From positions 1-30,591 of the IMG/VR virus record IMGVR_UViG_3300035070_002763: a DNA stretch of 30,591 nucleotides, one strand, 5' to 3'. Source of the DNA: a virus. A program made the position numbers and the translations under genes. The notes under the pieces are model-generated. The model had not been told where the DNA came from, did not search any database, and was given only the letters and a program-made list of their open reading frames with translations. Below are positions 15,101-17,722 of the stretch, one piece after another. How positions within the stretch are numbered: position 1 is the first letter of the stretch; each line of letters begins with the position of its first letter.

Positions 15101-15438
15101 AGAATTCAAGCGAAAACAAGCCAATGAGAGATGAACTAGGAAGATTATTGCCTGGCTATACTGCTAATCCTAATGGTAGACCTGAAATGACAGAAGCAGA
15201 AAAACTCATTGCTAAAGCTAAAAGAGATTTTGTTAAAGAATATAAAGAAAGTCTTAGAGAATCATTACCTTTAATTAAACCAGTATTGATAGCAATGGCT
15301 TTAGAAGGAAATATACAGGCTATTAAAGAGCTTAATGATAGAGCAATGGGTAAAGCAGAATCTAAAGCAGATATAACATCTAATGGAGAAACTATTGCAT
15401 CAGTAATAAATATAATTAAACCAAATGACAGAGATTAA
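15085..15438 (+). CDS. terminase small subunit-like protein
   Basis: This 117-residue protein contains GRLLPGYTANPNGRPEMTEA near the N-terminus, a pattern typical of small DNA-packaging proteins, then a basic helix (KAKRDFVKEYKESLRESL) and KPVLIAMALEGNIQAIKELN, ending with NDRAMGKAESKADITSNGE. Together with its position directly before, and overlapping by 14 bases, the large terminase it is best read as the small terminase, which recognises DNA for packaging. It is shorter than classic TerS, but this class often is. Confidence 0.7.
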   Translation: MEENIENSSENKPMRDELGRLLPGYTANPNGRPEMTEAEKLIAKAKRDFVKEYKESLRESLPLIKPVLIAMALEGNIQAIKELNDRAMGKAESKADITSNGETIASVINIIKPNDRD

Positions 15439-17722
15439 CTTTTCCCCGAGTTTAAAACAGTTCAAGGCTTGGGAGTATCTAAATGATGATATAACTACTG
15501 AAATAGGATATGGTGGTGCTGCTTGTTTTACTGGAAATACAGAAGTCCTTACAGGGAATGGATATAAACCAATATCAGATATTCAAGTAGATGATAATGT
15601 TATTTCTCTCAATGAATTATCTGAAAAATTAGAAATAAAAAGAGTTTCTAATGTTTTTAAGTATGGTGGTTGCAATCCAAGACAAAAGATGATAGAATTA
15701 AGAGTATATGGAGAAACTATCACAACAACACCAGAACATAGATTTTACTTTAATGGACATTGGGTGCAAATTAAAACCATTAGAGAACGAATATTGGAGA
15801 TATGTGGAGGGAACGAACAAACTTTATTTAATCTCAAATCAAGGGCGTTTACTAACGAGGAATTGGAAAAACTGCAAACGAGATGCGATAATGAAACCTG
15901 CTTACGATGCAAAGGGTTATCTCCGAACAATGATAAAACAGGAGAGAATACATACAATCAAGATACACAGATTAGTAGCACAAGCTTTTATACCGAATCC
16001 ACAGAACAAGGAGCAAGTCAATCACAAGAACTTCAACAAGAGCGACAACAGAGTGGAGAATTTGGAATGGGTAACAGCCAAAGAGAATATGAAACACTCA
16101 ATGCAAATAAGGACTTTTCACAAATGGAAAAAGAAACCAGAACAAATACAGAGAGGCTCACAAGTGGGAACATCAATACTCAAGGAACATCAAGTATTAG
16201 AGATAAGAAAAATGTTTATTCCAAGAGTGATGACACGAAAAATGATAGCGAATATATACAATATCTCACCAGCGACAGTAAAAGATATTATTTTGAAGAA
16301 AAGTTGGAAGCATTTGAATTAAATATCCAAGCTATTGAAAGTATCAAAGAAATTGAGATAGATGAAGATGTTTACGATTTAGAAGTAGAAGATAATCAAA
16401 ATTATGTTGTTTCAAGAAATAATATAATCGTTCATAATTCTGGTGGTAAATCTTATCTTGGTTGTGTATGGATTACAGCCATGTGTATGGCTTATCCTGA
16501 TACAGGTTGGCTTATTGGTCGTAAAGAACTAACAAACTTAAAGAGAACAACACTTTTAACTTTATTTAAAGTATTTAAAGAGTTTGGTATTACAGATAAA
16601 CACTATACATATAATCAACAGAATAATATTCTAACTTTTAATAATGGCTCACAAATCTTTTTCATTGACTTAGGATACAAACCATCTGACCCACTGTATA
16701 CCCGTTTAGGAGGACTTGAACTAACAGGAGCATTTATTGATGAATCTAATGAAATACCTTATCAAGCTATTGAAATACTAAAAACTCGTATTGGTCGTAG
16801 AGGAACACACAGACCTAAATTACTTGAAACATTTAATCCTGACAAGGGACATGTTTATTCTCGTTATTATAAGTTGTGGAAAGATGAGAAACTACCTGAA
16901 TATAGACAATTCTTACAAGCATTGCCTAATGATAATCCTTACACATCAAAGGAATATATCGAACAACTACAAAATGCAGATAAGATAACTAAGGAAAGAC
17001 TTTTATTTGGAAACTTTGAATATGATGACGACCCTACAATACTTGTAAGAAATGATGCTTTTGAAGATATGTGGAGCAACACAGTAGATACTGAAACTAA
17101 AATCATATCAGTAGATGTGGCTAGATTTGGTAAAGACACTACTAGAATCGGACTATGGAATGGACTAGAACTAACTAAGGTATGGACTTATGAGAAGTAT
17201 GCAGTAGACCAGACAGCAGATGAGATTAAAAGAATAGCAAGTGAATATCGTGTGCCTTTCTCTCAAATCATTATAGATGAAGATGGAGTTGGTGGTGGGG
17301 TATTAGACTTAGTTCGTGGTGCTAAAGGTTTCATGGGAAACTCTGTGCCTTTTCCTATATGGGATACAAGACAGTTTAAATTTGTGCCTGCTAACTATCA
17401 GAATTTAAGAAATCAATGTTACTTTACACTAGCTGAATATATAAACAATCATAAGATAGCAATTAAAGATGAGAGTATCAAAGAAATCCTAAGAGAAGAT
17501 ATATCAGTTATTAGACAGAAGAACATAGACACAGATGGAAAGTTATCAATTATCTCTAAGGATGATATGAAAGAGATTATCGGTAGAAGTCCTGACATAT
17601 CAGATATGATGATGATGAGAATGTATTTTGAATTTAAGAAACCAGACGAACAAAGAAGAATAGAAATCAAAATGCAAGGATTCGCTAACAGACATAAACA
17701 TAAAACTAACCAAGTAGAGTAG
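15425..17722 (+). CDS. terL: terminase large subunit precursor, interrupted by an intein
   Basis: The precursor has 765 residues: N-extein 33, intein 305 (34-338), C-extein 427. Removal of the intein gives about 460 residues, normal for TerL. The joined sequence GYGGAA+SGGKS rebuilds the Walker A loop, split just before Ser339. Walker B is LTGAFIDE (about 433-440). Nuclease motifs are SVDVARFGKD (Asp about 564), IIIDEDGVGGG (Asp about 618) and SPDISDMM (Asp about 724 and 727). The protein packages DNA at the portal and cuts it. It cannot hydrolyse ATP until the intein is spliced. Part of the intein DNA also encodes an HNH endonuclease in the +1 frame. Confidence 0.9.
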   Translation: MTEINFSPSLKQFKAWEYLNDDITTEIGYGGAACFTGNTEVLTGNGYKPISDIQVDDNVISLNELSEKLEIKRVSNVFKYGGCNPRQKMIELRVYGETITTTPEHRFYFNGHWVQIKTIRERILEICGGNEQTLFNLKSRAFTNEELEKLQTRCDNETCLRCKGLSPNNDKTGENTYNQDTQISSTSFYTESTEQGASQSQELQQERQQSGEFGMGNSQREYETLNANKDFSQMEKETRTNTERLTSGNINTQGTSSIRDKKNVYSKSDDTKNDSEYIQYLTSDSKRYYFEEKLEAFELNIQAIESIKEIEIDEDVYDLEVEDNQNYVVSRNNIIVHNSGGKSYLGCVWITAMCMAYPDTGWLIGRKELTNLKRTTLLTLFKVFKEFGITDKHYTYNQQNNILTFNNGSQIFFIDLGYKPSDPLYTRLGGLELTGAFIDESNEIPYQAIEILKTRIGRRGTHRPKLLETFNPDKGHVYSRYYKLWKDEKLPEYRQFLQALPNDNPYTSKEYIEQLQNADKITKERLLFGNFEYDDDPTILVRNDAFEDMWSNTVDTETKIISVDVARFGKDTTRIGLWNGLELTKVWTYEKYAVDQTADEIKRIASEYRVPFSQIIIDEDGVGGGVLDLVRGAKGFMGNSVPFPIWDTRQFKFVPANYQNLRNQCYFTLAEYINNHKIAIKDESIKEILREDISVIRQKNIDTDGKLSIISKDDMKEIIGRSPDISDMMMMRMYFEFKKPDEQRRIEIKMQGFANRHKHKTNQVE
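15524..16438 (+). other. intein in the Walker A motif of TerL, with dual-coding centre
   Basis: Residues 34-338 of the precursor. Block A: Cys1 in CFTGNTEVLTGNGYKPISDI. Block B: TTTPEHRFYFNGHW with the T-x2-H. Blocks F/G: VYDLEVEDNQNYVVSRN then IIVHN, followed by Ser+1. The splicing segments are about 87 and 37 residues, as in mini-inteins. Between them about 180 residues are rich in Gln, Ser, Thr, Asn and Glu with no recognisable domain: they are the frame-shifted reading of the HNH gene at 15708-16322. The block F position usually held by a basic or acidic residue is Asn/Gln-Asn here, so catalytic efficiency is unsure. Confidence 0.9.
15708..16322 (+). CDS. NUMOD4-HNH homing endonuclease, nested in +1 frame of the intein
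   Basis: A complete 204-residue endonuclease in the +1 frame relative to TerL. It has a NUMOD4-type start (EYWRYVEGTNKLYLISNQGR, 29-47), the HNH_3 core IHRLVAQAFIPNPQ (86-99) and VNHKNFNKSDNRVENLEWVT (104-123; His87, His106, Asn114, Asn118), and a C-terminal helix-turn-helix (160-200, NISPATVKDI). It ends in its own TAA at 16320-16322. ATG 15708 is the first start; ATG 15753 (MDIGCKLKP) is closer to the domain. No -10 was seen next to either, so initiation or frameshifting is unresolved. It presumably cuts intein-less terL alleles. Confidence 0.85.
   Translation: MEKLSQQHQNIDFTLMDIGCKLKPLENEYWRYVEGTNKLYLISNQGRLLTRNWKNCKRDAIMKPAYDAKGYLRTMIKQERIHTIKIHRLVAQAFIPNPQNKEQVNHKNFNKSDNRVENLEWVTAKENMKHSMQIRTFHKWKKKPEQIQRGSQVGTSILKEHQVLEIRKMFIPRVMTRKMIANIYNISPATVKDIILKKSWKHLN

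Follow-up and report, generated by a model that had tools for sequence, protein, structure and literature searches.

Can a single stretch of DNA encode an intein and, in another reading frame, an independent homing endonuclease? This question is raised by the gene for the terminase large subunit (terL) in virus record IMGVR_UViG_3300035070_002763, whose window (the whole stretch of DNA analysed here) is 30.6 kb long with a GC content of 31%. The nearest named TerLs identified by tblastn came from Flavobacterium, Bacteroides and Cellulophaga phages, which is consistent with a Bacteroidota host for the window phage.

An intein interrupts the Walker A motif of TerL

The following features were assigned to the terL reading frame.

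15425..17722, plus strand: terL, 765 codons and a stop, interrupted in frame by the intein (Pfam Terminase_6N E 7e-8, Intein_splicing E 7e-16; tblastn to phage terminase large subunits)
15524..16438, plus strand: intein of 305 aa, Cys1 to Asn305 (Walker A split GGAA/SGGKS; alignment motifs; intein-free relatives L001 and L002)
15524..15823, plus strand: N-terminal half of the Hint domain, residues 1-100 (AlphaFold pLDDT mostly 83-92; Foldseek to inteins)
15827..16306, plus strand: host-frame linker, residues 102-261, predicted disordered, overlapping the HNH gene (pLDDT <50 throughout; no stop)
16307..16438, plus strand: C-terminal half of the Hint domain, ending VHN, then Ser +1 (alignment; AlphaFold)
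16439..17719, plus strand: TerL C-extein, from SGGKS on (ORF; intein-free relatives)

The intein carries the residues of a class 1 intein (Cys/Ser1, block B TxxH, C-terminal His-Asn and a +1 Ser/Thr/Cys): C1, T69xxH72, H304-N305 and the +1 Ser (S306) were invariant in an alignment of 22 inteins. In the AlphaFold model of the host-frame intein, the Hint domain had a pLDDT of about 90 and linker residues 102-261 fell below 50. Foldseek matched this model to the Ssp DnaB mini-intein, NpuDnaE and other inteins with E values of about 1e-6 to 1e-5, in agreement with a Hint fold. The conserved GGAA/SGGKS motif is interrupted in frame, and GGAASGGKS is uninterrupted in the intein-free homologues L001 (TerL 86% identical) and L002. 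L001 is a 2337-base contig whose terminal repeat, about 120 bases long, joins the portal gene to terL; the contig probably arose as an artefact of chimeric or circular assembly, though its intein-free terL junction matches that of L002. An interruption of about 1 kb was also seen in the middle of another TerL homologue (L045:4865-5938).

The two intein halves do not lie in two ORFs, as in a split intein, but in one open frame (15425-17722). No endonuclease domain was found in the intein frame; at that place the host frame encodes a linker predicted to be disordered, and the HNH lies in the +1 frame.

A complete HNH endonuclease gene lies in the +1 frame of the intein

The features of the nested gene are as follows.

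15753..16322, plus strand: nested HNH homing endonuclease gene, +1 frame relative to TerL (likely ATG 15753, alternative ATG 15708; TAA 16320-16322; Pfam, PHROG_59, phmmer, Foldseek)
15789..15932, plus strand: NUMOD4 motif of the nested endonuclease (Pfam PF07463, E 1.6e-5)
15963..16091, plus strand: HNH_3 nuclease motif (Pfam PF13392, E 1e-11; H91, N103 and N112 of the 189-aa form invariant)
16176..16283, plus strand: putative helix-turn-helix-like C-terminal DNA-binding region (Pfam HTH_7 below cut-off; model helices 145-154, 162-168 and 173-182)

The initial annotation had described a complete NUMOD4-HNH gene at 15708-16322. The plus-strand ORF of 204 codons from ATG to TAA, its frame (+1 to that of TerL) and its Pfam domains agree with that description, but translation probably starts at ATG 15753 and not at 15708, because NUMOD4 begins at about 15789 and an M[DE]xG start aligns with relatives. 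The gene sits exactly where the in-frame endonuclease domain of an intein would be. It matched PHROG_59 (HNH endonuclease) with an E value of 2e-44 and I-HmuI (1u3e) in phmmer with 1e-8. H91, N103 and N112 were invariant in 30 relatives and align with H75, N87 and N96 of I-HmuI. The AlphaFold model of the HNH protein reached a mean pLDDT of 85.9, and its sole strong PDB match in Foldseek was I-HmuI (1u3e, E 7e-7). The nested gene thus combines the NUMOD4 motif, the HNH_3 motif, the catalytic residues and the fold of an I-HmuI-like enzyme. The helix-turn-helix that had also been assigned to it is helical in the model, but HTH_7 scored only below the Pfam threshold.

The same arrangement recurs in at least 25 further type I genes

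Relatives of this arrangement (type I) were sought by a scan for the intein C-terminus running into SGGK, by scans with HNH alignments and then by a uniform survey; degenerate peptide patterns were used in the searches, and all counts of nested genes are lower bounds. A scan of viral contigs with one HNH sequence as the query yielded no relatives, and a scan with the intein alone yielded a single distant one (L055). From the Walker A junction pattern came L058, whose TerL intein occupies the same site and has an HNH in the same frame that is 49% identical; the N-junction pattern returned only L058 and chance matches, and the scan of genome contigs gave no additional convincing nested case.

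The uniform survey identified at least 237 HNH domains. Stops in the frame +2 from the HNH were distributed bimodally, with none in at least 40 rows and mostly 4 to 35 in the others. The 40 zero-stop rows include duplicates and one false positive (L311), after removal of which at least 26 distinct nested genes remained with the window, that is, at least 25 further ones, always in the same +1 frame. The homologous terL inteins with a two-frame arrangement that the initial annotation had suggested looking for thus exist. The remaining third frame of the nested genes was never open (15-30 stops). Both intein ends were visible in all distinct nested genes except the truncated L148, and the type I insertion points in TerL were GGAA/SGGKS, GGAAGG/SKS, GGSKG/SGKS, GGAAG/SGKS, GGSAR/SGKS, QGGT/SSGKT and QGG[ST]R/SGKT. 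Summed over the 26 type I genes, within-gene shuffling predicted 289.5 host-frame stops and none was observed; when each gene was tested by itself, 0 of 1000 shuffles were stop-free in any gene.

The tree of the HNH family was too poorly resolved to place the nested HNHs in one clade; it is compatible with a single origin of nesting. The seemingly nested L311 is a short GC-rich chance case, as is L314 (1 stop), and the phage matches H95, H187 and H100 were ordinary.

Split and free-standing relatives carry host-frame stops

Related HNHs were also found between the halves of split inteins at six loci (L144, L199, L225, L270, L276 and L277). There, the N-intein ORF ends shortly after the HNH ATG, overlapping the HNH start, and the C-intein ORF begins just ahead of the HNH stop; the HNH is +1 to the N-half, and the host frame contains 15-28 stops. 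A similar split intein at L141 has a different relative frame. The split inteins of L141 and L144 lie in P-loop genes unlike TerL. At L126, L132 and other loci, a free-standing HNH gene is located directly 5′ of an intein-free TerL, with many stops in the host frame. Homologues with host-frame stops, which would have spoken against dual coding had they been contiguous inteins, were thus split inteins or free-standing genes. These relatives are natural controls: freedom from host-frame stops is maintained in contiguous inteins alone.

Just 3′ of the free-standing HNH, the Walker A codons of some TerLs are broken by small insertions that bring a stop or a change of frame (L140, L142, L210, L218, L232, L243, L244, L245, L264, L279 and possibly L161). 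Examples are FGGGAG-[TA]-GGKS in L218, FGGGA-[TA]-TGGGKS in L210 and TGGR-[TA]-SGSGKS in L243, and the inserts of L140, L244 and L245 contain GC-rich inverted repeats. These insertions look like recoding cassettes reminiscent of the bypassing in T4 gene 60 beside a homing endonuclease, with sequencing error possible in each case.

A second HNH family is nested in C-terminal TerL inteins

The TerLs of L129, L231 and L139 contain a second intein near the C-terminus, which hides an HNH in the +2 frame. This HNH (type II) belongs to a different family from type I and has zinc-finger-like cysteines. The type II nested HNH genes are listed below.

L129:4298-4837
L231:5191-5730
L139:4344-4889
L368:2613-3287
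L369:1568-2248
L370:1707-2621 (stop to stop)
L371:1884-2393
many of L374-L453

Among the matches listed, 69 of 88 type II domains were nested, always in the +2 frame and none in another. Over at least 64 distinct genes, 131.8 stops were expected and 0 observed, single GC-rich cases alone not being significant. Substitutions at HNH codon positions 1/2/3 numbered 44/44/134 (p 1e-16), and in 2014 of the 2016 pairs, identity was higher in the HNH frame than in the host frame. Three named phages carry the type II arrangement: Acinetobacter phage vB_AbaM_Highwayman (OZ038341), Tetrasphaera phage TJE1 (HQ225832) and Rhodobacteraceae phage LS06-2018-MD07 (OP947163). In all three records, terL alone is annotated at the nested locus and no HNH.

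A free-standing type II relative was located directly upstream of the small terminase gene in Acinetobacter phage vB_AbaM_BP10 (L372:1989-2630); it is about 50% identical to the nested HNH of phage Highwayman. The TerL/hint annotation of Vibrio phage 1.245.O (L454) resembles a split intein for the type II family.

Internal initiation is favoured for the nested gene

Most nested genes have an ATG at the same position of the intein. The host residue before a glycine varies there (N, D or Y), and its codon always ends in AT, giving ATGG with the glycine codon. ATG is absent from the exact position in L252, L255, L278 and L280-285; L222 and L224 have lost the usual ATG and have an alternative one 9 bases upstream, and L255 has only a TTG nearby. 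No Shine-Dalgarno sequence was evident before the HNH, which is normal for this phage, since none was evident for 32 of the 34 window genes either; this scarcity agrees with a Bacteroidota host.

A programmed +1 (or -2) frameshift from the terL frame would instead yield a TerL-N-intein-HNH fusion, and no separate enzyme. Such a shift would work in the stretch of about 15-30 codons ahead of NUMOD4 over which the HNH frame is open, and it would suit L255, which lacks a nearby ATG. In nearly all nested genes, though, the stretch from the last preceding stop to NUMOD4 retains an ATG, no slippery sequence common to the start contexts was evident by eye, and the split-intein relatives have the HNH as an ORF of its own that starts at the same place. 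Frameshifting is unlikely, and internal initiation is favoured.

Selection mainly tracks the HNH frame

In six close non-overlapping type I pairs, substitutions at HNH codon positions 1/2/3 were 30/27/124 (p = 1e-22). Host codon position 3 corresponds to HNH position 2, and selection therefore mainly tracks the HNH frame; the concentration of substitutions at HNH third positions indicates that the HNH is under purifying selection and the host frame is just kept open. Amino-acid identity was higher in the HNH frame than in the host frame in 325 of 325 type I pairs. The frequency of T at HNH position 3 was 0.21 in nested genes versus 0.34 in other family members. The host linker is thus free to vary but held stop-free.

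The locus could also be a relic, with a defunct endonuclease frame and an intein that survives without homing. One relative bears on this: L219 (1303-1656) has a nested HNH without the NUMOD4 region, both frames still being open, an apparent decay of the endonuclease which suggests that some copies are decaying. The window HNH, by contrast, is full length and retains its catalytic residues and start, its family has the strong third-position bias given above, and a dead frame would be expected to gain stops and frameshifting indels. A relic is accordingly a distinctly improbable description of the window locus.

The two open frames are neither chance nor artefact

The initial annotation had reported that the host frame stays open across the HNH gene, and we asked how far this departs from expectation. 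With the HNH protein fixed, codon resampling at phage usage predicted 21 host-frame stops and within-gene synonymous shuffling predicted 10, against 0 observed; none of 20000 trials reached 0 stops, for resampling and for shuffling. In the reverse test with the host protein fixed, 7.8 stops were expected in the HNH frame and again 0 were observed. T at HNH third positions, which are the first bases of host codons, had a frequency of 0.18 versus 0.38 in other phage genes.

These numbers also bear on assembly or sequencing indels, by which an HNH truly fused in frame with the intein, as usual, would only seem to be displaced. Errors can occur in one single contig, yet this reading needs two compensating ones, and such a pair would leave an unselected frame filled with 10-21 stops where 0 were seen, so that sequencing error is no explanation. 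The same two-frame arrangement is moreover found in 25 further distinct genes on many contigs. No indel explanation that puts the HNH in frame fits, and its probability is negligible. It is equally far-fetched that the HNH lies within a group I intron removed from the RNA, as the intron-encoded I-HmuI might suggest: no Rfam match to a conserved group I intron RNA was obtained, whether at the gathering threshold or with E values allowed up to 10, the insert is nearly all coding, and the Hint halves are contiguous, in frame and joined by an open linker. The nested HNH in the TerL intein is neither chance nor an indel artefact.

A probable dual-coding intein as a proposed mobile element

It is very likely, judging from the sequence and the models, that this locus is a dual-coding intein, in which a self-splicing intein in the host frame and a nested HNH translated from an internal start would together home into the P-loop. 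The proposal of the initial annotation that one stretch of DNA encodes the intein linker and an independent HNH is supported by the 0 stops, the 25 further genes, the position-3 substitutions and the models. The host frame is predicted to encode a class 1 intein that would splice itself out of the Walker A loop of TerL, and the middle 160 intein residues would form a disordered linker whose sole detectable job is to stay stop-free. The +1 frame would encode a NUMOD4-HNH homing endonuclease of the I-HmuI kind as a free-standing protein, its translation most likely starting at the internal ATG 15753 on terL mRNA. From the insertion points, we infer that the homing site is the P-loop codons. The HNH would cut these codons in the uninterrupted terL of a co-infecting relative, and break repair would then copy intein and enzyme together; the intein would maintain terL function and abolish the cut site. 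The HNH enzyme probably spreads the intein in this way.

More broadly, and with somewhat less assurance, we think it likely that dual-coding inteins are a widespread mobile element of phage terminases that evolved at least twice, in which an intein and a separate endonuclease share DNA and move as a unit. Nesting would then be one of four ways (nested intein, split intein, free-standing neighbour and recoded P-loop) by which members of one HNH family coexist with the site that they target, and split inteins may derive from the nested form, or yield it, through gain or loss of host-frame stops.

Two genes of familiar types overlap here in a natural and recurring way, and controls are built in, namely the free-standing and split-intein HNHs with stops, which allow a direct measurement of what holds an overlapping frame open. 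The nested form provides a specific path by which contiguous inteins could become split ones or the reverse. Nesting also explains why annotation overlooks such endonucleases, as in the terL records of Highwayman, TJE1 and MD07, and it poses a testable question of how the nested gene gets translated.

Comparison with known systems

In full inteins, the homing endonuclease (LAGLIDADG or HNH) is a domain within the intein polypeptide. The TerL intein shares with them the splicing domain, the place of the endonuclease between blocks B and F and an inferred homing role, but its endonuclease would be a separate protein in another frame. As a contrast case, the HNH match in Aphanizomenon phage CL131 (L455:1501-1791) is in frame with an annotated dCTP deaminase. 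The gene for I-HmuI resides in a group I intron; the nested HNH resembles I-HmuI and other NUMOD4-HNH enzymes (PF13392, PHROG_59) in sequence and fold, but its gene overlaps an intein and not an intron. Fractured genes, in which a homing endonuclease gene lies between the halves of a split intein, were reportedly described by Dassa et al. in 2009. The free-standing endonuclease gene between intein halves is common to both, but the TerL intein is contiguous, with 0 host-frame stops versus 15-28 in the split relatives.

Mycobacteriophage TerL inteins are also located in the P-loop and have intein HENs (Kelley et al. 2016, PMC5050341). As far as the accessible part of that paper goes, their P-loop location and adjacent insertion points are like those described here, but no out-of-frame HNH is reported in it.

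The initial annotation knew of no standard description of this arrangement. For inteins this held in full-text literature searches of partial coverage, which yielded no account of an intein with an endonuclease in a different frame; an out-of-frame HNH outside an intein has, however, been described in ShiLan (PMC11855218, 2025). The ShiLan paper cites, beside its remark on overlapping frames, a preprint on a 'non-canonical architecture' of actinophage inteins (PMC11855218). In ShiLan, the HNH is out of frame in a phage methylase that the authors consider neither intein nor intron, its translation mechanism is unsettled and homing is inferred (PMC11855218). In both cases a complete HNH gene of about 195 aa overlaps a host gene in a different frame, and the host frame remains open. 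ShiLan, however, has no splicing domain and its insert is retained in the host protein, whereas the TerL host frame, in a packaging gene that is essential, contains a splicing domain (Intein_splicing E 7e-16) and encodes a canonical intein.
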